This document shows positions 14,609 to 54,940 of a stretch of DNA of 64,000 bases, piece after piece. The number at the start of each line of letters is the position of its first letter. The first letter of the stretch is position 1. The DNA comes from Yoonia vestfoldensis SKA53 (lineage in GTDB: Bacteria > Pseudomonadota > Alphaproteobacteria > Rhodobacterales > Rhodobacteraceae): the NCBI RefSeq assembly GCF_000152785.1, contig NZ_CH672414.1, positions 2,855,350 through 2,919,349 of the forward strand. Direction: 5' to 3'. The notes beneath the pieces are model-generated. The model was not told where the DNA came from. It saw only the letters and a program-made list of their open reading frames with translations, and ran no database searches. The position numbers and the translations under genes were made by a program.

Positions 14609-17600
14609 ACGGGCTGATCGACGCCGCCTTTGGGCGTGGCAAGGTTGTCACGCTGGTCTTTGCCTTCCTGTTGCTGGTGGGCGGCTTTGCCTATCTGGCG
14701 ATCCCCAAGGAAAGCAACCCGGAGGTCACTATTCCGGTTGTCTATGTATCCACATCGCTGGACGGGATTTCGCCGCAGGATGCCGAAGATGTGCTGGTGC
14801 GCCCGATGGAAACCGAATTCGCGTCATTGACGGGCCTCAGCACGATGACCGCAAAAGCGGGCGAAGGGTTTGCCACCGTGCAGCTGGAATTCGAGCCGGG
14901 CTATGACGCGGGTCAGGCGCTGGACGATGTCCGTCAGGCCGCCGACCGTGCCGAAAACGACCTGCCCGACAGCGTCAATCTGACCGTGACCGAGATTAAC
15001 ACAGCCCTGTTCCCGATCCTGACGGTAATCCTGTCCGGGCCGGTGCCTGAACGGACGCTGAACGCCATCGCCGACAATCTGCAGGACGAGATCGAGGCGC
15101 TGGGCGGCGTGCTCGAGGTGGATGTGGCGGGCAAGCGCGACGAATTGCTTGAGGTGCTGATCGACCCTACCGTGTTCGAGACCTATAATCTGTCGTTTGA
15201 CGAATTGATCGGGTCGATCACGCGCAACAACCAGCTGATCGCCGCCGGTGCCATCGAAAGCGAGGCGGGGCGCATCGTTCTCAAGGTGCCGGGTCTGATC
15301 GAAAACGTGCAGGATGTGATGGACCTGCCGATCATCACGCGCGGCCAGACCGTCGTGACATTTGCCGATGTCGCCACGATCCGCCGCACCTTCGAAGATC
15401 CTTTGGGCTATGCCCGCATCGACGGCCAGCCCGCGCTGGCGCTGGAGATCAAGAAACGCGCAGGCGCCAACATTATCGACACGGTGGACGACGTGCGCAG
15501 CGTCATCGACCGTGTGCGCGCCGATTGGCCCGAGACGGTCGAGATCAGCTATACGCTGGACGAAAGCGAAACCGTCAAGACCATGCTGTCCGACTTGGAG
15601 GCGAACGTGATCGCGGCGATCATGCTTGTGATGATCGTTGTCGTCTATGCGCTGGGCCTGCGGTCGTCGGTGCTGGTCGGGCTGGCCATTCCCGGCGCGT
15701 TCCTGACGGGTGTCGCGGCTTTGTATTTCATGGGGCTGACGATGAATATCGTCGTGCTGTTCTCATTGATCCTTGTCGTGGGGATGCTGGTGGACGGGGC
15801 CATTGTCACGGTCGAACTTGCCGACCGCTACCTGCACGAAGGCGACAGCCCGCGCCTGGCCTATGCCCGCGCGGCCAAACGCATGGCCTGGCCGATCATC
15901 GCCTCGACCGCGACCACGCTTTGTGTGTTCTTTCCGCTGTTGTTCTGGACGGGCGTCGTGGGCGAATTCATGAAATTCCTGCCGATCACGGTGATCGTCA
16001 CGCTGTCGGCGTCGTTGTTCATGGCGCTGATCTTTATCCCCGTTGTCGGCGGCATGATCGGCAAGCGGCAGGGCCAGACAGCCAAGGCCAAGGCGCAGCT
16101 TTACGCCGCCGAAAAAGGCGATCCGCGCCAGATGACGGGTTTCATGGGCGGCTATATCCGCGTGCTGGAATGGTCGATCCTGCGGCCCTGGACCACGCTG
16201 TCCTTTGCCATGATCGCGCTGGTCGCATCCTTTGTGGCTTATGGTCATTTCGGCAATGGTCTGACCTTTTTTCCCGATGTCGAACCCGATTATGCGCAGG
16301 TCGAAATCCTCGCCAAGGATAATTTTTCGGTCTACGAACAAGACGCCTTGGTCCGGCAGGTCGAGGCACGGATCGCCGCTTATGATGAAATCGCCAGCGT
16401 TTATGCCAATTCCGGCGCATCGCAGGAAAGCGGCGATGTCATCGGGTCGCTGCAACTGGAACTGACCGATTGGGATACCCGTCGCCCCGTCGCCCTGATC
16501 GCCGAGGATATCCGCGCCGATATGGCTCAGATTCCAGGGATCGAGGTGCAGGTGCAGACCGCATCTGGCGGTCCGGGCGGCGGCAAGCCGATCAATCTGG
16601 AGATTTTCAGCGCCAATGATGCCGACCAGAATATCGCCATGGCGGCGGTTCTGGCTGAAATGGACCGGCTTGGCGGGTTTATCGACATCATCGATTCGCG
16701 CCCCAGCCCCGGCGTGGAATGGCAGATCAGCGTTGACCGGTCCGAGGCTGCGCGCAGCGGTGCCGATGTCGCCCTGCTGGGGCAGGCGGTGCAATTGCTG
16801 ACGCGCGGGATCAATGTCGCCACCTACCGGCCAGAGGATGGTGACGGCGAGGTTGATATCGTGGTGCGCTTTCCTGCCGACAGCCGCACGCTGGAAGAGT
16901 TGGAGGCGCTGCGCGTGCCCACCTCGGTCGGTCTGGTGCCGATTTCGAATTTCGTGTCGTTCAATCCGGCCCCGCGGTCGGGTGTGATCACACGCATCGA
17001 CCAAGCCCGCGTGCTGACAATTTCCGCCGATGTAGCCCCTGGCATTCTGCCCAATGACCAGACGCTGGCGCTGCAAGCGACGATCGAAGGGCTTGATCTG
17101 CCCGACAGCGTCAGCATCAAATTCGGTGGCGAGGCGGAAGACCAGGCTGAATCCATGATCTTTCTGGCGGGCGCATTCCTGTCGGCTATCGGGCTGATGT
17201 TCCTGATCCTGCTCGCGCAGTTCAATTCGTTCTGGCAAGCCTTTGTCGTGATGTCGGCGATCGTCTTTTCGGTCGCGGGGGTGCTGTTGGGCCTGATGAT
17301 CACGGGTCGCCCCTTTGGTGTGGTGATGGGCGGGATCGGGGTGATCGCGCTGGCGGGGATCGTGGTCAACAACAACATCGTGCTGATTGACACCTACAAC
17401 GAATTGCGCGCCGCAGGGCTATCCTCGCTCGAGGCGGCTTTGCGCACGGGGGCGCAGCGTCTGCGGCCCGTGGTGTTGACGTCTGTGACGACGGCGCTGG
17501 GGCTGATGCCGATGGTGATTGGCCTGAACATCAACTTTTTCACGCGCGAGATCGTCTATGGCGCGCCGTCGACGCAATGGTGGACAGAATTGTCCAGCGC

Positions 17601-25504: not shown

Positions 25505-26188
25505 ATGGGCCGTCACACGTTGCATGGCAACCCCCCGATTGATGTGACATTGCGCAAATCGGCACAGGCGCGACGGTTATCGTTGCGGGTGTCGCGGCTG
25601 GACGGGCGCGTGACGCTGACAATGCCGTCAGACCTGCCTGATCGCGAGGGGCTTGCTTTCCTGCGCGACAAGGAAGATTGGCTGCGCGGCCATCTGGGCC
25701 GCCTTGGTCCGGCAGAATCTGTGAAGATCGGATCCATGGTGCCGGTGCAGGGCAGGGCCTTGCCCGTGGTGGCGGGGCCGCGTTTGCGGGTGCTTGACGA
25801 TCGGATCGAGGTACCGCCCAGTCGTGCGGCTGCAGGGCCGATCCGTGCGCGACTGCGGGCGATGGCGCGCGATGCGCTGGCTGCGGCGTCCGACCGGCAT
25901 GCCGCTGCACTGGGGGTTGGCTATGACAAGCTGGCAATCCGGGACACGCGGTCGCGCTGGGGGTCTTGTTCCAGCAAGGGCGTGCTGATGTATTCCTGGC
26001 GGCTGATCATGGCCCCGCCGGCGGTGCTGGATTATGTTGCCGCCCATGAAGTCGCGCATCTGCGCGAGATGAACCATGCGCCCGCGTTCTGGGCTGTTGT
26101 GACGCAGCTTTGCCCCGATTACGCGACCCACCGGCAATGGCTGCGCGATCATGGCGAAAGCCTGCACCGCCTGCGGTTCGACGATTGA
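25505..26188 (+). CDS. YgjP-like zinc metallopeptidase domain protein (M48/SprT-like)
   Basis: A 227-residue protein with the YgjP (DUF45) layout: an N-terminal beta-rich segment (about 10-95), the conserved DTRSRWGSCSSKG (about 148-160), then the zinc motif HEVAH (His181, Glu182, His185) followed by MNH with His191 as probable third ligand. It should be a cytoplasmic zinc hydrolase; physiological substrates are unknown for the family. ATG at 25505 was preferred over an upstream in-frame start because MGRHTLHGN leads directly into the conserved region. A TTGACAGGTGTCAA inverted repeat lies upstream at 25457-25470. Confidence 0.88.
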   Translation: MGRHTLHGNPPIDVTLRKSAQARRLSLRVSRLDGRVTLTMPSDLPDREGLAFLRDKEDWLRGHLGRLGPAESVKIGSMVPVQGRALPVVAGPRLRVLDDRIEVPPSRAAAGPIRARLRAMARDALAAASDRHAAALGVGYDKLAIRDTRSRWGSCSSKGVLMYSWRLIMAPPAVLDYVAAHEVAHLREMNHAPAFWAVVTQLCPDYATHRQWLRDHGESLHRLRFDD

Positions 26189-26201
26189 CGGGCGCGCGTT
26201 T

Positions 26202-26211
26202 TGTGATCACA
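26202..26211. promoter_or_regulatory. Single TGTGATCACA palindrome upstream of the GntR gene
   Basis: A perfect 10-bp palindrome, eight bases before the regulator's ATG at 26220. The same core occurs in pairs upstream of the suc and sdh operons. Position over the ribosome-binding/initiation region suggests autorepression. Confidence 0.6.
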
Positions 26212-26219
26212 TATCTGCC

Positions 26220-26870
26220 ATGCTGATCCAACCCCGCCCTGTCGATTCAACCACCTCTGCGCATGAACGCGTTTACCGCGCCTTGCGTACCCAGATCATG
26301 CATGGCGAATTGGCACCCGGTGCGGCGCTGACCCTGCGCGGCATCGGCAAGAGCTATGGCGTGTCGATGACCCCCGCGCGCGAGGCTGTCCGCAGGCTGG
26401 TCGCGGAAGGGGCCTTGTTTTTGTCCTCATCGGGCCGCGTGTCCACGCCTGCGCTGACCAACGAACGGATCGAGGAACTGGCGACGCTGCGCGCTATGCT
26501 GGAACCGGAGCTGGCATCGCGCGCTTTGCCGCGCGCGCATTTCGCGCTGATCGACCGGCTGGAGGCGATCAATCAGGGTGTCAGCCAGATGGTCGCGCGG
26601 CAGGATGCGACGGGCTATATCCGCATGAACCTTGAATTTCACCGGATGTTGTATCTGCGTGCGCAGGCCCCCGCGATGCTGGCCATGACCGAAACGGTCT
26701 GGTTGCAGTTGGGGCCGACGATGCGCGCGCTTTACGGGCGGTTGAACCGCAAGGAGCCGCCCTATCATCATAAACTGATCCTGAGCGCGCTAAAGGCCGG
26801 GGATGAACCGGGGCTGCGACTGGCGATCCGCACCGATGTGACGCAGGGCTTGCGGATGCTCAAAGGCTAG
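26220..26870 (+). CDS. GntR-family regulator with FCD domain; candidate AkgR (TCA-cycle regulator)
   Basis: A 216-residue transcription factor. The winged helix-turn-helix is at about 15-75 (HERVYRALRTQIMHGELAPG, then MTPAREAVRRLVAEGAL). The FCD effector domain is at about 85-205, with metal-site-like ATLRAMLEPELA and NLEFHRMLY. The ATG at 26220 directly follows a TGTGATCACA palindrome that recurs in pairs upstream of sucC and sdhC. In R. sphaeroides the GntR-family protein AkgR activates TCA-cycle genes; family, proximity and shared sites make this gene a good AkgR candidate, but I cannot verify orthology. Its stop overlaps the convergent neighbour's stop (CTAG). Confidence 0.85.
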   Translation: MLIQPRPVDSTTSAHERVYRALRTQIMHGELAPGAALTLRGIGKSYGVSMTPAREAVRRLVAEGALFLSSSGRVSTPALTNERIEELATLRAMLEPELASRALPRAHFALIDRLEAINQGVSQMVARQDATGYIRMNLEFHRMLYLRAQAPAMLAMTETVWLQLGPTMRALYGRLNRKEPPYHHKLILSALKAGDEPGLRLAIRTDVTQGLRMLKG

Positions 26871-27593: not shown

Positions 27594-28982
27594 TCAGGCG
27601 TGTATTGCCCCGTCGCCACAAGCCAGCGCGGCCTCGCGCACAGCCTCGGAATAGGTCGGGTGGGCGTGGCAGGTGCGCGCAAGGTCTTCGGCTGCGGCGC
27701 CAAATTCCATTGCGACGCAGATTTCGTGGATCAGATCGCCCGCCATCGGGCCGATGATATGCGCACCCAAAATCCGGTCGGTTTCCTTGTCGGCAAGGAT
27801 TTTGACGAAACCGTCAGCGGCATGGTTCGCCTTGGCCCGCGCATTGCCCATGAAGGGGAATTTGCCGACCTTATAGGCGCGCCCTGCTGCTTTCAGCGAT
27901 TCTTCGGTTTCGCCGACATTGGCGACCTCGGGGTGGGTATAGATCACGCCGGGGATCACGCCGTAATTCACATGGCCGTGCTGGCCTGCAAGGATTTCGG
28001 CGACAGCCATGCCTTCGTCTTCGGCCTTGTGGGCCAACATCGGGCCGGTGATCGTGTCACCGATGGCATAGATGCCCGCCACATTGGTCGCAAAGCTGCC
28101 GTTGGTCTTGATCTGGCCACGCTCGGTCATCTCGACGCCCAGATCGGCCAGCCCCAGCCCGTCGGTGTATGGCTTGCGGCCAGTTGCCACCAGCACGGTG
28201 TCGGCGGTCATTTCATGGGTGCTGTCATCCTTGCGCAGCTTGTAGGACACTGTTGCCTTGGCTCCCTTGACCGTCACACCCTGTACGGCCGCGCCAAGGG
28301 TGAATTTCAGCCCCTGTTTGGTCAGTACTTTCTGGAACTGGCGCGCAACCTCGGCATCCATGCCGGGGGTGATCGCATCCAGATATTCGATGACGTTCAC
28401 ATCCGCGCCAAGCCGGGCAAAGACCGACCCCAGCTCCAGCCCGATGACACCGGCACCGATCACGACCATCGTCTTGGGGATCTTGCCCAGTTCCAGCGCG
28501 CCGGTCGATGTGACGACGATCTTTTCGTCAACCTCGACACCCGGCAGGCTGGCGGCCTGTGACCCGGTGGCGATGACGATATGCTTGGCGTCATGCGTCT
28601 CATCACCGACCTTGACCTTGCCCGCTGCGGGGATGGTGGCCCAGCCCTTGATCCAGTCGACCTTGTTCTTTTTGAACAGAAATTCGATGCCACCAGTGTT
28701 CTGGGCGATGGTTTCGTCCTTGTAGGTCAGCATCTGTGTCCAGTCGACCGTCGGTGCCTTGCCCTTTAGCCCCATGCCAGCGAAATTATGTTCTGCCTCG
28801 TGCAGCATATGGGTCGCGTGCAGCAGCGCCTTGGACGGGATGCAGCCGACGTTCAGGCAGGTGCCGCCCAATGTGGCGCGCCCTTCGACACAAGCGACCT
28901 TGAGGCCCAGTTGCGCCGCACGGATCGCGCCGACATAGCCGCCGGGGCCGGACCCGATAAAGATGACATCATAGCTGGACAT
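27594..28982 (-). CDS. lpd: Dihydrolipoyl dehydrogenase (E3)
   Basis: A 462-residue FAD disulfide oxidoreductase that reoxidises the lipoyl groups of E2 and passes electrons to NAD+. Motifs: FAD-binding [10 protein letters not shown] (10-19), redox disulfide Cys42/Cys47 in [16 protein letters not shown]-binding [14 protein letters not shown] (about 180), and the C-terminal catalytic His441 in HAHPTYSE. It is the last gene of the sucCDAB-MAPEG-lpd operon, so it is the E3 for 2-oxoglutarate dehydrogenase, possibly shared with other complexes. A MAPEG protein gene lies between it and sucB. Confidence 0.97.
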
Positions 28983-29465: not shown

Positions 29466-30677
29466 TTACAAATCCATCAACAAGCGGCGCGGGTCTTCCA
29501 GGGCTTCTTTCACGCGCACAAGGAAGGTCACGGCGCCTTTGCCGTCCACGATCCGGTGGTCATAGGACAAAGCCAGATACATCATCGGCCGGATCACGAC
29601 CTGCCCGTTGATCGCCATCGGGCGGTCCTGGATCTTGTGCATGCCCAGAATACCCGATTGCGGGGGGTTCAGGATCGGCGAGGACATGAGCGAGCCGTAG
29701 ACACCACCGTTGGAAATGGTGAAGGTGCCGCCCTGCATTTCTGCCATCGACAATTTGCCGTCGCGGGCTTTGGCACCCATTGCGGCAATCGCCTTTTCGA
29801 TATCGGCAAAGCTCATCTGGTCGGCATCGCGGATCACCGGCACCACAAGACCCGTGGGCGTACCAGCGGCGATCCCCATATGGACGTAGTTTTTATAGAC
29901 CACGTCAGTGCCGTCGATTTCGGCGTTCACTTCGGGGACTTCGTGCAAGGCGTGGATGCAGGCCTTGGTAAAGAACGACATAAAGCCCAGCTTGACGCCG
30001 TGTTTCTTGAAGAACAGGTCCTTGTAGGCGTCGCGCAGTGCCATCACCTCGGTCATGTCGACCTCGTTATAGGTGGTCAGCATGGCGGCGGTGTTCTGGC
30101 TGTCTTTCAGGCGCTTGGCGATGGTCTGGCGCAGGCGGGTCATCTTGACGCGCTCTTCGCGGGCCTCGTCGCTGGCCGCCACTGGCGCGCGGGGGGCGGA
30201 GGCAGGGGCAGCGGCGTCGGATTTCGCGGTCAGCGCCTTCAGCACATCCTCTTTCATCACGCGGCCATCCTTGCCGGTGCCGGTGACATCGGAAATGCCG
30301 CTGTCGGCCATCAGTTTCTTGGCCGATGGGGCATCTTCGGGATCACGCGGTTTCGTCTCTTCCGGGGCGGCATTGGTCTGGGTCGCGGCAGCATCGGGCG
30401 CTGGGGCTGCTTTTGGTGCCTCTTTCACGGGGGCAGAGGCGCCTTCGGCGATCTGCGCCAGCAGCGCATCGACGCCAACGGTTTCACCTTCGGCGGCAAC
30501 GATTTCGGACAGGGTGCCGGCGACGGGGCTTGGCACTTCGACCGTGACCTTGTCGGTTTCCAGTTCGCACAGCATTTCGTCGACGGCGACGGCATCGCCG
30601 GGTTTCTTGAACCATGTGGCGACAGTGGCCTCGGTCACGGATTCACCAAGCGTGGGGACGCGGACTTCGGTGCTCAT
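29466..30677 (-). CDS. sucB: 2-oxoglutarate dehydrogenase E2 (dihydrolipoyl succinyltransferase)
   Basis: A 403-residue core subunit that transfers the succinyl group from lipoamide to CoA. Domains: one lipoyl domain (1-76) with Lys43 in ETDKVTV as lipoylation site; an Ala/Pro linker (80-115); the E3/E1-binding domain (about 117-150, [11 protein letters not shown]); and the catalytic domain (175-403) with His374 and Asp378 in DHRIVDG. The start codon overlaps the sucA stop (ATGA), so the two are coupled. One lipoyl domain is usual for SucB. Confidence 0.97.
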
Positions 30678-33637
30678 TTCTTTGTTCCTTTGATGGTCAG
30701 CGCATCGTCAACCAGCGCTGCTTGTTCTGCTTTATGCTTGCTTGCGAGGCCGGTGGCAGGGCTCGCCGCGGCGGCGCGTCCGGCATAGGTGGGGCGTGCA
30801 TGTCGCGCTTTGATCCGGGTCAGTACCCATTCAAGGTTGGGTTCCATAAAGGCCCACGCGCCCTGATTTTTCGGTTCTTCCTGACACCAGACCATTTCCG
30901 CGTTCTGGAACCGTTCCAGCTCCTTCATCGCGGATTGCGCCGGGAAGGGATAGAATTGTTCGAACCGCAGGATATAGACATCGTCGATCCCGCGTGCATC
31001 GCGTTCTTCCAGCAGGTCATAATAGACCTTGCCCGAACACATGACCACGCGCTTGATCTTGTCGTCATCCACCAGCTTGATTTCGGAATTGCCGTATTGC
31101 GCATCGTCCCACAGCACGCGGTGGAAGCTGGACCCTGTCGTGAATTCCTCTTTCTTGGACACGGCCAGTTTGTGGCGCAGCAAGGATTTCGGCGTCATCA
31201 GGATCAGCGGTTTGCGATAGGTGCGGTGCAGCTGGCGGCGCAGCAGGTGGAAATAATTGGCCGGCGTGGTGCAATTGGCCACGATCCAGTTGTCACCGCC
31301 ACACATGGTCAGGAACCGTTCCAGACGCGCGCTGGAATGTTCCGGCCCTTGGCCTTCGTACCCATGCGGCAGCAGGCAGACGAGGCCGGACATCCGCAAC
31401 CATTTGCTTTCGCCCGAGGAGATGAACTGATCGAACATGATCTGCGCACCATTGGCGAAATCGCCGAACTGTGCCTCCCACAGGGTCAGCGCATTGGGTT
31501 CGGCCAGCGAATAGCCGTATTCGAACCCCAAAACCGCATATTCCGACAGCATCGAATCGATGACCTCGTAGCGGGCCTGACCTTCGCGGATATTGTTCAG
31601 CGGGTAATAGCGGTCTTCGTTTTCCTGGTTGATAAAGGCCGAATGCCGCTGGCTGAACGTGCCGCGCGTGCTGTCCTGACCGGACAGTCGTACGGGAAAC
31701 CCTTCAAGCACGAGAGAGCCGAACGCCAACGCCTCGCCCGTGGCCCAGTCGATGCCGGTGCCGCTTTCGAACATCTGCACCTTTGCTTCGCGCAAACGGT
31801 CGATGGTCTTATGCGTCGGGAAATTATCCGGCACCGTGGTCAGCGCCTTGCCGATTGCCGCAAAGTCGCCATCGGAAATGGCGGTCTTGCCACGCTGGTA
31901 TTTCTTTTCCTTCATCCGGTCGAGATGCGACCAGCGCCCGTCCAGCCAGTCGGCCTTGTTGGGTTTATAGTTTTTGCCAGCCTCGAATTCCTCGTTCAGA
32001 TGGGCCTGAAACGCGGCTTTCATATCCTCGATTTCGCCTTCGGGGATCAGGCCGTCCTTGACCAGCCGTTCTGTGTACAGCGTCAGCGTGGTCTTTTGTT
32101 TCTTGATTTTTGTGTACATCACCGGGTTGGTGAACATCGGCTCGTCGCCTTCGTTGTGACCAAAGCGGCGGTAGCAGATGATATCCAGCACCACATCCTT
32201 GTGGAATTTCTGGCGGAATTCGGTGGCGACGCGTGCGGCATGGACCACAGCCTCTGGATCGTCGCCGTTGACGTGGAAAATCGGGGCTTCGACCATCAGC
32301 GCGATATCGGTGGGATAGGGGCTGGACCGGCTGAAATGCGGGGCGGTTGTGAAACCGATCTGGTTATTGACCACGATATGCATCGTACCACCAGTGCGAT
32401 GCCCGCGCAGACCCGACAGACCAAAGCCTTCGGCGACGACGCCTTGGCCCGCGAAGGCCGCATCACCATGCAGCAGGATCGCCATGACCTTGGTCTTGTC
32501 GGTATCGTTCTTTTGGTCCTGCTTGGCGCGGACCTTGCCCAGAACGACGGGGTTCACCGCCTCGAGGTGGCTGGGGTTGGCGGTCAGCGACAAATGGACG
32601 GTGTTGTCGTCAAAGCTACGGTCGTTGGAGGCACCAAGGTGGTATTTCACATCACCCGACCCATCGACATCCTCTGGCTTGAACGAGCCGCCCTGAAATT
32701 CGTTGAAAATCGCGCGGTAGGGTTTTTGCATCACGTTCGCCAGCACCGACAACCGGCCCCGGTGCGGCATGCCGATCACGATATCTTCCAGCCCCAGCTG
32801 GCCGCCGCGCTTGATGATCTGTTCCATCGCAGGGATCAGGCTTTCGCCGCCATCAAGGCCGAACCGCTTGGTCCCCATGTATTTGACATGCAGGAATTTT
32901 TCAAAACCTTCCGCCTGCACAAGGCTGTTCAGGATTGCCTTGCGCCCGTTCTGGGTAAAGGTAATTTCCTTGCCATAGCCTTCGATGCGTTCTTTCAGCC
33001 AGCCCGCTTCTTCGGGGTTGGAAATATGCATGTATTGCAGCGCGAATGTGCCGCAATAGGTGCGTTTCACGATGGCCATGATCTCGGCCATGGTGGCGAC
33101 CTCGAGCCCCAGCACGTTGTCGATGAAAATCGGACGGTCCATGTCCTTGGCGGTAAAGCCGTAATTGGCGGGGTCCAGTTCCGGGTGCGGCACGGTTTCG
33201 CGCATGCCCAGCGGGTCCAGATCGGCGATCAGGTGGCCGCGAATACGGTAGGCGCGGATGATCATCAACGCGCGCAAGCTGTCCAGCACGGCATTGCGGA
33301 CCTGTGCTTCGGACAGGCCCACGCCTTTTTCAGCGGCTTTCGCCTTGATCTTGTCGGCGGCGGCGGCAGGTTCTGCTGGCCATTGGCCATCCAAGGCGGC
33401 GGTCAGGTCGTCATTGGGCACCGGCGGCCAGTCGCGGCGCGCCCAGGATGGGCCGGCAGCCTCGGCCTGCGCATCGGCGGGAGTGTCGCCAAGGCTGCGG
33501 AAAAACGCCTGCCAGCTTTCATCGACCGCCCCCGGATTGTCGGCATAGCGCGCATAAAGCTGTTCGACATAACCCGCGTTATGGCCTTGCAAAAAGCTTG
33601 ACGCGTGGAAGACATCGTTGGGGGAGTGGTCGTTCAT
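30674..33637 (-). CDS. sucA: 2-oxoglutarate dehydrogenase E1
   Basis: A 987-residue thiamine diphosphate enzyme that decarboxylates 2-oxoglutarate and succinylates the E2 lipoyl group. Visible: the E2-interacting N-terminus with [13 protein letters not shown] and [20 protein letters not shown]; the ThDP/Mg motif region [14 protein letters not shown]; and [15 protein letters not shown]. The C-terminal half carries [16 protein letters not shown] and [20 protein letters not shown]. Full length for the alphaproteobacterial family. A long antisense open frame covers nearly all of it but is a codon-bias shadow. Confidence 0.98.
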
Positions 33638-33660: not shown

Positions 33661-33718
33661 CGTAGGGCGGGGCTAGCCCCGCCGCTGTTGTGGGTGTCGG
33701 GGTGAACCCCGACCTACC
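33661..33718 (-). repeat. Double palindrome between sucD and sucA
   Basis: Two hairpins in tandem: GGCGGGGCTAGCCCCGCC (33666-33683, perfect 18-bp palindrome) and GTCGGGGT-GA-ACCCCGAC (33696-33713). The outer flanks GTAGG and CCTAC are themselves inverted, and CTA at 33714-33716 is the complement of the sucD TAG stop. It lies within the intercistronic gap and resembles REP-type elements. Confidence 0.65.
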
Positions 33719-34595
33719 CGATGGCTTTCAGCACAGCCTCGCCCAGCGTGGCGGGGCTGTCGGCGACGATGATGCCAGCGGATTTCATTGCCTCGATCTT
33801 GCTTTCAGCGTCGCCTTTGCCGCCTGCGACGATCGCACCGGCATGACCCATGCGACGGCCCGGAGGCGCTGTGCGGCCTGCGATGAAACCGGCGGTGGGT
33901 TTCCAGCGGCCTTTCTTGCGTTCGTCGGCAAGGAATTGCGCGGCTTCTTCTTCGGCGGACCCGCCGATTTCACCAATCATGATGATCGAATGTGTTTCGT
34001 CATCGGCCAGGAACATTTCGAGAATGTCGATATGTTCGGACCCTTTGATCGGATCGCCGCCGATGCCCACGGCGGTGGACTGGCCCAGACCGCTGTCAGA
34101 TGTCTGTTTCACAGCCTCATAGGTCAACGTGCCAGAGCGTGACACAACACCAACCGACCCGCGCCGGTGGATATGGCCGGGCATGATACCAATCTTGCAG
34201 GCGTCGGGCGTGATGACACCGGGGCAGTTCGGCCCGATCAGGCGGGATTTGGACCCTTCCAGCGCGCGCTTGACCTTCATCATGTCCAGCACGGGGATGC
34301 CTTCGGTGATGCAGATGATCAGCTCCATTTCAGCGTCGATCGCCTCGAGGATGGAATCAGCCGCAAAGGGTGGCGGTACATAGATCACGGATGCATTGGC
34401 TTGGGTGACGTGGCGCGCTTCGTGGACCGAGTTGAAGACGGGCAGGTCAAGATGGGTGCTGCCGCCCTTGCCGGGGGTGACACCGCCGACCATCTTGGTG
34501 CCATAGGCGATGGCCTGTTCGGAATGGAACGTGCCTTGCGAACCGGTCAGGCCCTGGCAGATCACGCGGGTATTTTCGTTAACGAGAATGGCCAT
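33714..34595 (-). CDS. sucD: Succinyl-CoA synthetase alpha subunit
   Basis: A 293-residue subunit that binds CoA and carries the phosphohistidine. Motifs: CoA-binding [17 protein letters not shown] near 13-29, [10 protein letters not shown] near 121, and His251 in [10 protein letters not shown], matching E. coli His246. It converts succinyl-CoA to succinate with ATP/GTP formation, with SucC. ATG at 34593-34595 is preceded by AAGGAG; an open frame upstream is not supported. It follows sucC after a 56-base gap that contains a hairpin. Confidence 0.97.
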
Positions 34596-34623
34596 ATGGT
34601 GGCTCCTTGGGAAATCTGGGGGG

Positions 34624-34650
34624 TAAGGTGGGTCTTGACCCACCCTACGG
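34624..34650 (-). repeat. Intercistronic palindrome between sucC and sucD
   Basis: GGTGGGTC (34627-34634) and GACCCACC (34637-34644) with a TT loop, followed by CTACGG. It starts within three bases of the sucC stop. The CCCTACG flank is shared with the palindrome after sucB. Confidence 0.6.
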
Positions 34651-34651
34651 G

Positions 34652-35845
34652 TTAACCTTTGACGGCTTTCACGATTTTCTGCGCGCCGTCTTTCAGGTCG
34701 TCGGCGGCGATCACGTCAAGGCCGGAATTACGGATGATTTCCTTGCCCTTCTCGACGTTGGTGCCCTCAAGCCGGACGACCAGCGGCACTTTCAGCCCGA
34801 CTTCTTTCACCGCGGCGATGACACCTTCGGCGATGACATCGCAGCGCATGATGCCCCCAAAGATGTTGACCAAGATGCCTTTGACATTGGGGTCAGAGGT
34901 GATGATCTTGAACGCTTCGGTCACTTTTTCCTTGGTCGCACCACCGCCCACGTCGAGGAAGTTGGCAGGTTCGGCCCCATAAAGCTTGATGATATCCATC
35001 GTCGCCATGGCCAGACCGGCACCGTTGACCATGCAGCCGATTTCGCCATCCAGCGCGATATAGTTCAGGTCGTATTTCGAGGCGGCGAGTTCTTTGGGGT
35101 CTTCTTCTGTCTCGTCACGCAATGACGCGATATCGCCGTGGCGGTACATCGCGTTGCCGTCGAACGACACCTTGGCATCCAGCACCTTCAGATCGCCCTT
35201 GTCGGTCACGATCAGCGGGTTGATTTCCAGCATCTCCATGTCTTTTTCGGTGAAGGCTTTGTAAAGCTGGCCCATCAAAGTGACGCATTGCTTGATCTGG
35301 TTGCCGGTCAGCCCCAGCGTGAACGCCACACGGCGACCGTGAAACGCCTGATAGCCCGTGGCGGGATCAACGCTGAACGACAGGATCTTTTCGGGTGTCG
35401 CTGCGGCGACTTCCTCGATGTCCATGCCGCCTTCGGTCGAGACGACGAAACTGATCCGGCTGGTCTGGCGATCCACCAGCAGGGCCAGATACATCTCTGT
35501 TTCGATGCCCGAACCATCCTCGATATAGATGCGGTTGACCTGCTTGCCTGCGGGGCCGGTCTGGTGCGTCACCAGCGTGCGGCCCAGCATCTTTTTCGCC
35601 TCTTCGGCGGCTTCTTCGACGGACCGGCACAGGCGCACGCCGCCTTTGTCACCGGCGTCAGCCTCTTTGAATTTCCCTTTGCCACGGCCGCCGGCGTGGA
35701 TCTGTGCCTTGACGACCCACAATGGGCCGTCCAATTCGCCAGCAGCGGTTTTTGCATCTTCTGCGCGGGTGACAGGGCGACCGTCGGAAACCGGCGCGCC
35801 GTAGCTGCGCAGTAGGGCTTTGGCCTGATATTCGTGGATATTCAT
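34652..35845 (-). CDS. sucC: Succinyl-CoA synthetase beta subunit
   Basis: A 397-residue ATP-grasp subunit that binds nucleotide and partners SucD. It begins [19 protein letters not shown], then [17 protein letters not shown] (nucleotide contact), [13 protein letters not shown] (metal site, about 203-215), and the ADP/GDP-specific C-terminal region around FVDVGG-like [14 protein letters not shown] and [14 protein letters not shown]. First gene of the sucCDAB-MAPEG-lpd operon; paired TGTGATCACA sites lie about 100 bases upstream. mdh is upstream on the same strand but is closed off by a terminator. Confidence 0.98.
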
Positions 35846-35933: not shown

Positions 35934-35977
35934 ATCCGACATTTGTGATCACTTGATTGAAAAGTGTGATCACAAAA
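35934..35977 (-). promoter_or_regulatory. Paired TGTGATCACA operators upstream of the sucCDAB operon
   Basis: Two GTGATCAC cores, at 35945-35952 and 35966-35973, centred at 35948.5 and 35969.5 and thus exactly 21 bp (two helical turns) apart. Reading toward sucC the order is TTGTGATCACAC, spacer, AGTGATCACAAAT, then GTCGGAT (ATCCGAC at 35934-35940 on the plus strand). The sdh upstream region has the same arrangement. A likely activator or repressor site, perhaps for the GntR/FCD protein at 26220. Confidence 0.75.
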
Positions 35978-36092: not shown

Positions 36093-37175
<1,083 letters not shown>

Positions 37176-41114: not shown

Positions 41115-41166
41115 GTGTGATCACACGCGAAAAATTCGTGATCACAAATCGAAAAAAGTGTCGGAT
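41115..41166 (+). promoter_or_regulatory. Paired TGTGATCACA operators upstream of the sdh operon
   Basis: GTGTGATCACAC (41115-41126) and GTGATCAC (41138-41145), centres 41120.5 and 41141.5, exactly 21 bp apart. CACAAAT follows the second site. GTCGGAT is at 41160-41166, ten bases further from the site than in the suc region. Located 120-170 bases upstream of sdhC. Confidence 0.75.
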
Positions 41167-41285
41167 CGCGGCAAATGGCCCACAAAAAGCCCTTGTGCTG
41201 CGCGTGACTCTGGCACTGGAATGGTGCAAGTAGGAAGCCAATGCGCTGTCGTGCCGGACAGTGCGCGCCACTGAAGGGAACGACC

Positions 41286-41669
41286 ATGGCCGATGTGAAC
41301 CGGGGCAATCGCCCGCTTTCACCGCATCTGACGATCTACCGTCCGCAATGGACCTCGATCACCTCTATTCTGGTGCGGATCACCGGCAATGCCCTGCTTG
41401 TCGCGGGTTTGCTGATCGTGTGGTGGTTCGTTGCCGCCGCAACCGGACCTGCGGCTTTTGCGCTGGCCGACGGTGTGCTGACCAGCTGGTTTGGCAAATT
41501 GGTGATGCTGGGGTCGATCTGGGCGTTGTGGTACCACAGCCTGGGCGGTTTGCGGCATCTGGTCTGGGATTCTGGCCGGATGCTGGACGTGGCCAGTTCG
41601 GAACGGGCAGGTCAGGCGATGGTCGCCCTGTCGGTCGTGCTGACGATCATCACCGTCATTATTTTGTAA
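41286..41669 (+). CDS. sdhC: Succinate dehydrogenase cytochrome b556 subunit
   Basis: A 127-residue membrane anchor of complex II with three transmembrane helices (approximately 26-52, 67-88, 106-127). It begins MADVNRGNRPLSPHLTIYRP, typical for the SdhC family. The second helix carries the haem-ligand histidine region YHSLGGLRHLVWD (His83/His89 by position). ATG at 41286 has GAAGGGAAC upstream. sdhD follows after 12 bases. Confidence 0.95.
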   Translation: MADVNRGNRPLSPHLTIYRPQWTSITSILVRITGNALLVAGLLIVWWFVAAATGPAAFALADGVLTSWFGKLVMLGSIWALWYHSLGGLRHLVWDSGRMLDVASSERAGQAMVALSVVLTIITVIIL

Positions 41670-41681
41670 GGATCGACAGAG

Positions 41682-42053
41682 ATGGCATTTTTGACAGATC
41701 GCAAACGCGCGGTGGGCATGGGGTCGGCCAAGTCTGGCACGCATCACCATTGGCAGATGATGGTAACGTCGGTCGCACTTTTGGTGCTGATTCCGTTGTT
41801 CGTGTTTACCTTCGGCACGATCCTTGGCGCGCCTTACGCCGAGGTCATCGCTTATTATCAGCGCCCGTTTCCGGCGGTGGTGGCCATTCTGACGATGCTG
41901 GTGGGCTTTTTCCATTTTCGTCTGGGTGTCCAAACCGTGATCGAGGATTATGTTCATGGTTTCGCACGCAAGGCGGCGATCATTTTCATGATCTGCCTTT
42001 CTTATGCCGCGGCGGGGTTTGCGGTTTTCGCGATCATCCGCATCGCATTGTAA
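41682..42053 (+). CDS. sdhD: Succinate dehydrogenase membrane anchor subunit
   Basis: A 123-residue anchor subunit with three hydrophobic helices. The N-terminal part has GMGSAKSGTHHHWQMMVTS, and the middle VGFFHFRLGVQTVIEDYVHG carries the conserved residues that help bind haem and quinone. With SdhC it anchors SdhAB to the inner membrane and transfers electrons to ubiquinone. RBS AAGGA precedes the ATG. Confidence 0.94.
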   Translation: MAFLTDRKRAVGMGSAKSGTHHHWQMMVTSVALLVLIPLFVFTFGTILGAPYAEVIAYYQRPFPAVVAILTMLVGFFHFRLGVQTVIEDYVHGFARKAAIIFMICLSYAAAGFAVFAIIRIAL

Positions 42054-42071: not shown

Positions 42072-43877
42072 ATGGCCGCTTATGATTACGAGACACATAC
42101 CTATGACGCCATCGTCGTAGGGGCCGGGGGCGCGGGTCTGCGCGCCACTTTGGGGCTGGCCGAACAGGGCCTGCGCACCGCCTGCATCACCAAGGTGTTC
42201 CCGACACGGTCGCACACCGTTGCAGCCCAAGGCGGCATCGCTGCCAGCCTTGGCAATATGGGCCCTGACAGCTGGCAATGGCACATGTTCGACACTGTCA
42301 AAGGGTCGGATTATCTGGGCGACACTGATGCGATGGAATATCTCGCCCGTGAAGCGCCCAAGGCGGTGTACGAGCTGGAACATTACGGCGTGCCGTTTTC
42401 GCGCACCGAAGAGGGCAAGATCTATCAGCGGCCCTTTGGTGGCCACACGACCCAGTTCGGTGAAGGCCCCGCCGTGCAGCGCACCTGTGCCGCTGCCGAC
42501 CGCACCGGCCACGCGATCCTGCACACGCTCTATGGTCAGTCGCTGAAACAGAAGGCCGAGTTCTATATCGAATATTTCGCGCTTGACCTGATCATGTCCG
42601 ATGACGGCGTCTGTCAGGGCGTGATCGCATGGAAGCTCGACGATGGCACCATGCATGTGTTCAATGCCAAGATGGTTGTGTTGGCGACGGGCGGCTATGG
42701 CCGCGCCTATTTCAGCGCCACATCGGCGCATACCTGCACCGGTGACGGTGGCGGCATGGTCGCGCGGCAGGGGCTGGCGTTGCAGGATATGGAATTCGTG
42801 CAATTCCACCCGACCGGCATTTACGGCGCGGGTTGCCTGATCACCGAAGGCGCGCGCGGCGAAGGCGGCTATCTGACCAATTCCGAGGGCGAGCGTTTCA
42901 TGGAACGCTATGCCCCTAATTACAAAGACCTTGCCCCGCGCGATTACGTCAGCCGCTGCATGACGATGGAAATCCGCGAAGGGCGCGGTGTGGGCGCGAA
43001 TGGCGACCATATCCACCTGAACCTGAACCACCTGCCCAAAGAGGCTTTGGCCGAACGTCTGCCCGGTATTTCCGAAAGCGCCAAGATTTTTGCCGGCGTC
43101 GATGTGACCAAGGAACCGATCCCCGTGCTGCCCACCGTGCATTACAACATGGGCGGTATTCCGACGAATTATCATGGCGAGGTGCTGAACCCGACCAAGG
43201 ATGATCCCACCGCGATCGTGCCCGGCCTGATGGCCGTGGGCGAGGCGGGCTGTGCCTCTGTGCATGGGGCGAACCGGTTGGGGTCGAACAGCCTGATCGA
43301 CCTTGTGGTCTTTGGCCGTGCCGCCGCGATCCGGGCTGGTCATGTCGTCGACCGCAAGGCGGCCAACCCGACCCTGAACAAGGCGTCTGTCGATGCCAGC
43401 TTTGGCCGCTTCGACCAGTTGCGCCATGCCAAGGGCAATGTCGGTACGGCCGAGCTGCGTCTGGAAATGCAGCGCGCCATGCAGGAAGATGCAGCCGTGT
43501 TCCGCACCGACAAGACGCTGGCCGAAGGTGTTGCCAAGATGACCGCGATTGCGGGCAAGATGGACGATCTCAAGGTCACTGACAGGTCGTTGGTCTGGAA
43601 CAGCGACCTGATGGAAACGCTGGAACTGGACAACCTGATGCCCAACGCATTGGCAACCATCGTGGGCGCCGAGGCGCGCAAGGAAAGCCGTGGTGCGCAT
43701 GCGCACGAGGATTACCCCGACCGCGATGACGCAAAATGGCGTGTTCACACGCTTGCGCATGTCGATGGCGCGAAAACCACGCTGTCGTATCGCCCTGTCA
43801 TCACCAAGCCGCTGACATCCGAGGCCGAAGGCGGCATCGCCGAAGACCGGATCAAGCCGAAAGTGCGCACTTTCTAA
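42072..43877 (+). CDS. sdhA: Succinate dehydrogenase flavoprotein subunit
   Basis: A 601-residue catalytic subunit that oxidises succinate to fumarate. FAD dinucleotide motif [17 protein letters not shown] (15-31), covalent-flavin histidine His48 in [12 protein letters not shown], the substrate-binding region around [21 protein letters not shown], and [22 protein letters not shown] near the C-terminal third. Full length for the family, ending KPKVRTF. Its TAA stop overlaps the next start (TAATG). Confidence 0.98.
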
Positions 43878-53413: not shown

Positions 53414-54940
53414 ATGAATGCCCCCGTGATCACCTTTTCCGACGACCAGGCCGACGCCTGGGATAATGTTGCATCCGCGCTGCGCCAGGCGGGCGTTGAT
53501 CTGGACGACAGCCTGCTGCAACCGCCGCAAAGCGACACATCATCCGTGCTGGCCGTGATCGGCAAGGCGGGGTCGGGCAAGACCATGCTGCTTGCGGCCT
53601 TGTACAAGGCCTTGGCCGAGGCGGGCGTTGATGTGATTTCCGGCGATTGGGAAGGCCGCAAGCGCAAGGACCGCCGCACGCTGGCGATTCTGGCGCCGAC
53701 CAACAAGGCCGCGAGCGTGTTGCGCAACCGCGGCGTGCCGGCCACGACGATCCACCGTATTCTGTATACCCCCGTCTATGACCCCGAATATGAAAAGATC
53801 GCCGAATGGCTGGCGGGCCAAGGCGAGCGGCCCGATATCGACAGTCTGACCGATGTGGCGCTGGACCGCGCATGGGCGTCTTATCAGATCAATACCTCGG
53901 TGCCTGCGGCCCTGGCGGCGGCGGGCCTGCGCGGCAGCGATTTCATCACCGGCTGGAAACGCCGCGAGGAGCCGCTGGATATCGGGTTTGTCGACGAAAG
54001 CTCTATGCTGGATGCCAAGCAGTTTGCCGATCTCAAGGAGATTTTTCCGACCCTGCTGTTGTTCGGTGATCCTGCACAATTGCCGCCCGTGCAATCCAGC
54101 GGGGGCATGGTGTTTGAAACTCTGCCCAAGGACCGGGTTCTGACGTTAAGCCGGATTCACCGGCAGGATGCCGATAACCCGATCCTTGATCTGGCCCATG
54201 CCTTGGCCGATCCGATGCTGGATTTCTACACGTTCGAGCGCATGGTGGCCGAGGCCGCCGCCCGCGACGACCGTGTCGTCATGGCCCAACGGGTCGAGGC
54301 CGATCTGATGGCCCGCTCCCCCTGTCTGGTCTGGCGCAATGCGACGCGGATCAAGCTGATCCATGCGTTCCGCGCGGCGTTCAACGCGCCGCCCGATGCG
54401 CTGTTGCCGGGCGAGCCGCTGATCTGCGACGGGATCGAATTGCCGCTGAAACACCGCAAGAAACGGCTGGATCTCGAGGCGCGCGGGTTGATCAAAGGCG
54501 CGCAGGTGATCTATCTGGGTGCGGGCAAGAAGCCCGGTTTTTCGCGGCTGCATGTGATCGGTGCCGAAGACCCGCGGATTTCCGCCGCCAGCATCGTCAA
54601 GATCGAGCTTGAGGGCGATGCAGAGCCGTTCATCCCCTTTGCAGCCAAGATGGGGGCGACCTTTCTGCATGGCGCGGCTGTCACCATCCACAAGGCGCAG
54701 GGGTCGCAATGGGACACGGTGCAGGTCTTTGCCCCCGATATCGAGGTGGCCAGCCGCATGGGCCGGATGGAGGCGGGCCAGCCTTTGTGGAAACGCCTTG
54801 CCTATGTCGCAATCACGCGGGCGGAAACGCAATTGCGTTGGGTCGTGCGCAACCGGCTGGCAAGGCCGGAATTGGCACTGGGGGTGGATGATCTGGATGT
54901 GCCGGTCTCGACCCTGGAGTTGAAAGCGGAGGAATTATGA
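53414..54940 (+). CDS. RecD-like ATP-dependent DNA helicase (SF1)
   Basis: A 508-residue superfamily 1 helicase. Motif I GKAGSGKT (50-57), motif Ia LAPTNKAASVLR, motif II-like GFVDESSM, motif III GDPAQLPPV, motif V VTIHKAQGSQWDTV, and motif VI YVAITRA near the C-terminus. Resembles the helicase core of RecD2, without the long N-terminal helix-hairpin-helix part. It could act in DNA repair or in conflict resolution, unconfirmed. Its stop overlaps the SDR start (ATGA). Confidence 0.9.
   Translation: MNAPVITFSDDQADAWDNVASALRQAGVDLDDSLLQPPQSDTSSVLAVIGKAGSGKTMLLAALYKALAEAGVDVISGDWEGRKRKDRRTLAILAPTNKAASVLRNRGVPATTIHRILYTPVYDPEYEKIAEWLAGQGERPDIDSLTDVALDRAWASYQINTSVPAALAAAGLRGSDFITGWKRREEPLDIGFVDESSMLDAKQFADLKEIFPTLLLFGDPAQLPPVQSSGGMVFETLPKDRVLTLSRIHRQDADNPILDLAHALADPMLDFYTFERMVAEAAARDDRVVMAQRVEADLMARSPCLVWRNATRIKLIHAFRAAFNAPPDALLPGEPLICDGIELPLKHRKKRLDLEARGLIKGAQVIYLGAGKKPGFSRLHVIGAEDPRISAASIVKIELEGDAEPFIPFAAKMGATFLHGAAVTIHKAQGSQWDTVQVFAPDIEVASRMGRMEAGQPLWKRLAYVAITRAETQLRWVVRNRLARPELALGVDDLDVPVSTLELKAEEL

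Follow-up and report, generated by a model that had tools for sequence, protein, structure and literature searches.

The window examined here, the whole 64,000-nucleotide stretch from Yoonia vestfoldensis SKA53, contains a pair of short palindromes between mdh and the operon sucC-sucD-sucA-sucB-lpd, and a second pair that precedes sdhC-sdhD-sdhA. This raises the question of which protein would recognise these pairs, and to what effect. A candidate is the GntR/FCD regulator whose gene is located beyond lpd, on the opposite strand. With a probability of roughly 80%, we read the pairs as tandem AkgR-type operators, through which the product of this gene would activate suc and sdh from upstream while repressing its own expression. 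The features concerned are collected in Table 1.

Paired palindromes upstream of sucC and sdhC

Two palindromes 21 bp apart had been predicted upstream of sucC, and the letters confirm them: the cores, of sequence GTGATCAC, occupy positions 35945-35952 and 35966-35973, with an N13 spacer and 21 bp from centre to centre. The gene-proximal core is located 99 bp from the sucC ATG. An equally spaced pair upstream of sdh, also part of the original prediction, is present as well, with cores at 41117-41124 and 41138-41145, an N13 spacer and the same 21 bp centre to centre. The palindromes had been called identical, which is correct for the 8-bp cores, the same in all four, and incorrect for the 10-mer TGTGATCACA, which is perfect once per promoter (35965-35974 for suc, 41116-41125 for sdh); the partner cores of these perfect copies are TGTGATCACT and CGTGATCACA. 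Within each core the half sites TGTGA and TCACA abut with zero spacer. They resemble the half sites of CRP, and CRP sites have N6 between them; a CRP/FNR-type site was rejected, the six-base spacer being absent.

Some gene boundaries in the table follow the open reading frames as listed. The true start of sucD is probably about 16 codons inside its listed frame, homology in the listed mdh frame begins at residue 36-38, and the sdhC search query started 12 bp before the ATG, at 41274.

Table 1. Coordinates of the operators, promoter and genes in the window.
Feature	Position	Strand	Basis or remark
GntR/FCD transcription factor, AkgR-like, candidate binder	26220..26870	+	Pfam GntR + FCD
Single GTGATCAC core, putative autoregulatory operator	26203..26210	+	between TTGAC (26185-26189) and ATG (26220)
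lpd, dihydrolipoyl dehydrogenase	27594..28982	-	NCBIfam
sucB, dihydrolipoyl succinyltransferase	29466..30677	-	NCBIfam
sucA, 2-oxoglutarate dehydrogenase E1	30674..33637	-	NCBIfam
sucD, succinyl-CoA ligase alpha subunit	33714..34643 (ORF as listed)	-	NCBIfam
sucC, succinyl-CoA ligase beta subunit, first gene of the operon	34652..35845	-	NCBIfam
suc paired operator (putative), GTGATCAC-N13-GTGATCAC	35945..35973	-	pattern search and conservation
mdh, malate dehydrogenase, upstream neighbour of the suc pair	36093..37160 (ORF as listed)	-	NCBIfam
sdh paired operator (putative), GTGATCAC-N13-GTGATCAC, upstream of sdhC	41117..41145	+	pattern search
Predicted sdh core promoter: CGTGACT (-35 block) and weak -10 block CAAGTAG	41203..41233	+	two-block model
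sdhC	41286..41669 (ATG 41286)	+	NCBIfam succ_dehyd_cytB
sdhD	41682..42053	+	NCBIfam
sdhA	42072..43877	+	NCBIfam sdhA_forward

Frequency in the genome

The genome searched comprises 3,066,852 bases and is 99.92% complete. In it, GTGATCAC-N13-GTGATCAC has just two matches, those upstream of sucC and sdhC, and when any spacer from N5 to N25 is allowed the same two pairs are the only ones. Single cores number 115 in the genome and eight in the window, where 1.39 would be expected. With 115 cores in 3,066,852 bases, about 0.0043 N13 pairs are expected by chance, and 0.09 over all 21 spacers. The pair had been held improbable by chance, in agreement with these numbers, and the genome scan found no equally spaced pairs in unrelated coding regions. 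A control with the reversed pattern (3 matches against 115) was not counted as evidence for the single core, because the reversed word contains CTAG, which makes the comparison unfair.

The 10-mer TGTGATCACA has four copies genome-wide, all within the window, one of which stands directly before the ATG of the regulator gene. The fourth copy (16983-16992) is located inside a gene for an AcrB-type RND permease and is probably due to chance, though all four genomic copies span only about 24 kb. Another single core (53426-53433) falls at codons 5-7 of a gene with AAA/UvrD-type helicase domains, the ATG of which is at 53414.

Conservation of the pair

Conservation was first followed in 80 relatives of the regulator gene, fetched with their flanks (77-100% identical in the best segment, mostly Rhodobacteraceae by their titles). 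The fetched stretch contains the sucC start in 21 of these 80, and at least 143 bp upstream of it in 18. Both perfect cores, 21 bp apart, are present upstream of sucC in all 18, starting 104-136 bp before the sucC start.

A family survey covered 149 genomes, one per genus. At least one GTGATCAC pair with a spacer of N5-N35 is found in 133 of them, and at least one N12/N13 pair in 132; by hand count, 24 genomes have one such N12/N13 pair, 106 have two and two have three. The first-examined set of 36 genomes (35 listed and the window's own) contains 69 N12/N13 pairs, 35 at sucC, 32 at sdhC, one at fumC and one at sucA, while none of its eight fetched pairs with other spacers is at sucC or sdhC. 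The held-out set is made up of 78 genomes that were re-searched individually; G055 and G075 entered via the class survey, and 17 genomes, G135 among them, were counted only. Among the matches listed, and without G103 and one pair of G118, the held-out genomes yielded 136 fetched N12/N13 pairs, every one located at sucC (75) or sdhC (61), as against none of the six fetched pairs with other spacers (six of the 11 listed were fetched). In this assignment, pairs sharing the same 15-bp surroundings contributed a single count and gene matches starting beyond residue 12 were not used, so that one sdhC locus (L279) was assigned separately.

In a survey of the class (385 genomes), the five members of the family, the window's own genome included, all contain pairs; outside the family an N12/N13 pair is present in two of 380 genomes.

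Co-occurrence with the regulator gene

The predicted regulator has Pfam GntR (3.6e-14) and FCD (2.9e-18) domains, and its sole match in its own genome at E<=1e-20 is itself. The nearest fetched relative, from a Yoonia metagenome-assembled genome, is 99.5% identical. Taking a best E of 5e-83 or better as the mark of a strong orthologue, 131 of the 149 family genomes contain one. An N12/N13 pair is found in 128 of these 131 genomes, compared with four of the 18 without a strong orthologue (Fisher p 1e-13, a value that overstates independence because genera share ancestry). When only the 132 genomes that are at least 90% complete are considered, the pair is present in 117 of 119 with a strong orthologue and in two of 13 without. 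The looser spacer of N5-N35 gave 129 of 131; one genome, G061, is lost with the strict N12/N13 spacer. The proposal that one regulator serves both TCA operons is supported by this tracking of pair and gene over the 149 genomes. As the pairs stand before the two operons in nearly all relatives that carry the regulator, they are very probably sites of a regulator known from earlier work.

The exceptions are few. Three orthologue-positive genomes are without an N12/N13 pair: G040 has one-mismatch pairs at sucC and at sdhC, G147 is 73% complete, and G061, with a strong orthologue (best E 2e-98), has N5 and N14 pairs at neither promoter. Conversely, a pair occurs in the absence of a strong orthologue in four genomes, G019, G033, G096 and G114; in G033 a 50% identical protein is encoded about 8 kb from the sucC pair, and G096 is 77% complete.

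The promoter of the regulator gene

The single core before the regulator gene, which the original prediction did not contain, is also conserved. In 63 of the 80 fetched loci, the 150 bp preceding the regulator start contain a GTGATCAC core. The 17 loci without it include seven of the eight from Limimaricola, and one locus cut at its 5' end (L111) that was scored among them. Of the 62 loci that have both elements, 58 have the start of TTGAC precisely 18 bp ahead of the core; at this distance the -10 element would fall within the operator, and transcription would start close to the ATG. The core is likely to overlap the -10 region of the predicted core promoter, and autorepression is the simplest reading of the regulator's own site. 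In the window, this TTGAC also contains the stop codon of the preceding gene, so that its conservation may be due in part to something else.

Promoter geometry and A/T phasing

Core promoters were predicted with a two-block model, trained on the first set of genomes and applied unchanged to the held-out set (CGTGACA-N16-TATnA for sdh, CGTTTAA with a looser -10 for suc). It replaced a best-hexamer scan, in which the suc promoters were scattered. In the window, the predicted sdh -35 block is located 57 bp after the pair, the same position as in most relatives; the sdh -10 prediction is of poor quality, and the predicted suc -35 scores 4.4, less than the threshold.

For sdh, 27 of 36 promoters in the training set and 47 of 60 in the held-out set have the predicted -35 starting 56-59 bp beyond the pair; four and six, respectively, are ambiguous. 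In the remaining confident sdh promoters (five training, seven held-out), the displacement relative to the mode ranges from -22.5 to +21.5 bp; without exception (5/5 and 7/7) it is no more than 2 bp off an integral number of 10.5-bp turns. With suc, the model is weak, with no confident -35 in 14 of 39 training and 49 of 75 held-out promoters; the mode is at 43-45 bp after the pair (18 of 39 and 21 of 75), and six of seven displaced confident promoters in training and four of five held-out are in helical phase. That 11 of the 12 held-out outliers are in phase has a probability of 2e-4 to 3e-4 (per-call chance 0.38 to 0.40), with ancestry ignored; as shared ancestry links the genera, these phase counts too overstate independence.

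The A/T content between pair and -35 is periodic, the strongest period being 10.25 bp for sdh (n=97) and 9.75 bp for suc (n=114). Its periodic power is 50 in both, compared with 4.8 (sdh) and 1.7 (suc) upstream of the pair, differences of 10- and 29-fold. By column shuffling, the upstream controls, with their weak periodicity, are also called periodic (none of 2000 shuffles reaches them), so we relied on the difference in power and not on the p-value. At the second sdh peak (+40, with the first core as origin), A and T have about equal shares (0.47 each), so what is conserved seems to be the composition and not the individual letters. The A/T band may keep to the operators when the distance to the -35 differs, a pattern that is clear in seven short-distance suc promoters and weaker in sdh (seven short and five long). 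Spacing and phasing would suit an activator that works across bent DNA and keeps in helical register with RNA polymerase. In several sdh promoters of relatives (L176, L187 and L342, for example), a GCGCCAAAAAAC-like block recurs between pair and -35; it may represent an A/T tract or a binding site for another factor.

Comparison with known regulators

AkgR of Rhodobacter sphaeroides is reportedly a GntR-type regulator of TCA genes, said to have been described by Imam et al. in mBio in 2015, and we take the protein RSP_0981 to be AkgR. The GntR-family protein RSP_0981 is predicted, in the accessible part of PMC4344238, to control succinyl-CoA synthetase, alpha-KG dehydrogenase and sdh; family and three target enzymes are the same as here, while the accessible part of that source gives neither operator letters nor spacing. 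The core GTGATCAC is shared with AkgR, being reported as the AkgR motif in the portion of PMC6365646 available to us, where AkgR is called a transcriptional activator. The same portion describes PS417_07240 of Pseudomonas simiae, a GntR-like protein 32% identical to AkgR. It also has a conserved GTGATCAC near its own start, and differs in belonging to a deoxyribonate cluster with one palindrome per promoter, no pair being described in that portion (PMC6365646). In the available portions of five further papers the word AkgR appears once each, in the reference lists of PMC11323563, PMC4419725 and PMC7471390, and also in PMC8557541 and PMC5507952.

Three features of the AkgR regulon are found together in the window: a GntR DNA-binding domain, the operator core GTGATCAC and suc, alpha-KG dehydrogenase and sdh as targets. 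The GntR/FCD protein had been named as the candidate binder, a choice backed by the published AkgR motif, the R. sphaeroides targets and the core at its own start in relatives. The pair is real and, as a functional-looking and largely known regulatory element, matches a published regulon; that most of this regulon had already been described was not part of the original prediction. What is added here is the family-wide conservation, the co-occurrence with the regulator gene and the strict helical geometry. Paired dimers, phased A/T tracts and whole-turn geometry were not found in the accessible portions of the literature searched, the original AkgR paper lying outside that search.

The regulon of E. 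coli McbR presumably differs from that of the regulator here, and the likeness between the two proteins is one of sequence. Among solved structures, McbR is the best sequence match of the regulator (PDB 4p9f, E 1.3e-20).

Proposed mechanism and alternatives

The pair, its conservation, its link to sucC and sdhC, its co-occurrence with the regulator gene, its spacing to the predicted -35 and the A/T phasing were computed directly. From them we infer binding, cooperativity, DNA bending, activation and autorepression, as follows. Two GntR/FCD dimers would occupy neighbouring cores on the same side of the helix, well ahead of the suc and sdh promoters; given a spacing of 20-21 bp, they may plausibly bind cooperatively. 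The bound dimers would activate both promoters through RNA polymerase, assisted by the A/T tracts in helical phase between pair and -35. At the single core over its own predicted core promoter, the protein would repress its own gene.

That the palindromes arose by chance and have no function has next to no probability. Single cores are indeed common (115 in the genome), but only about 0.004 N13 pairs are expected and N12/N13 pairs are present in 132 of 149 genera, nearly all of those examined at the same two promoters; in our view this conservation already refutes a chance origin. A different regulator, for instance of CRP/FNR type, might bind the pairs, with the co-occurrence of the GntR gene a by-product of ancestry. 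The CRP-like half sites, the non-independence of the genera, the regulator without a pair in G061 and the pairs without a strong orthologue in G019 and G114 would be in line with this; it is made very improbable by the N6 spacing of CRP sites, as against none here, by the missing pair in 14 of the 18 genomes without a strong orthologue and by the same core at the GntR gene.

Many FCD regulators are repressors released by an effector, and the same GntR/FCD protein might sit on the pairs as a repressor of suc and sdh, to be released by an organic acid; the regulator's own single site is placed like a repressor site. We consider repression of suc and sdh unlikely, because most pairs stand too far upstream of the predicted -35 (about 44-59 bp) to act as a simple roadblock, because this distance is in helical phase, and because AkgR is termed a transcriptional activator in the available portion of PMC6365646. 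A repressor acting by looping would also fit phased upstream sites. For the preferred reading, activation from tandem AkgR-type operators, helical register and upstream position agree with activation by the predicted regulator.

The motif, a geometry conserved across the family and the regulator gene are now tied together for two central operons, and the spacing rules (whole-turn steps and phased A/T tracts) offer testable terms for how a GntR/FCD protein could activate at a distance. More tentatively, and at somewhat less than even odds, the TCA promoters of the Rhodobacteraceae may share one strict design for activation, with two GntR/FCD dimers placed two turns apart, A/T tracts in phase at about 10-bp intervals as far as the -35, a distance to the promoter that evolves almost exclusively in whole-turn steps, upstream DNA probably bent or wrapped onto RNA polymerase, and self-repression by the same protein from an embedded core.

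Further pairs in relatives

Some pairs are located at other genes. In G042, fumC, the gene for a class II fumarate hydratase, is preceded at about 120 bp by a third N13 pair (L159:994-1022), which would make fumC a third TCA target in one genus. In G136, a pair (L188:1054-1082) is found between mdh and sucA, the 2-oxoglutarate dehydrogenase E1 gene, without sucCD between them. Both the fumC and the sucA gene are cut by the end of the fetched stretch, and their scores are below the NCBIfam whole-protein cut-off. G135 has three N12/N13 pairs, of which the third may mark a further target.

Outside the family, the N13 pair of G295 (L192:992-1020) is located between a TonB-receptor-like gene, assigned by eye, and an FCD-GntR-type gene whose product is 30% identical to the window regulator, as expected if the motif accompanies proteins of this type. 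The second out-of-family N12/N13 pair is that of L193. Finally, two intergenic N23 pairs (31 bp, about three turns) are present at L189:1043-1081 and L127:1501-1539; the gene nearby, assigned by eye, is TauE-like in one case and outer-membrane-protein-like in the other.
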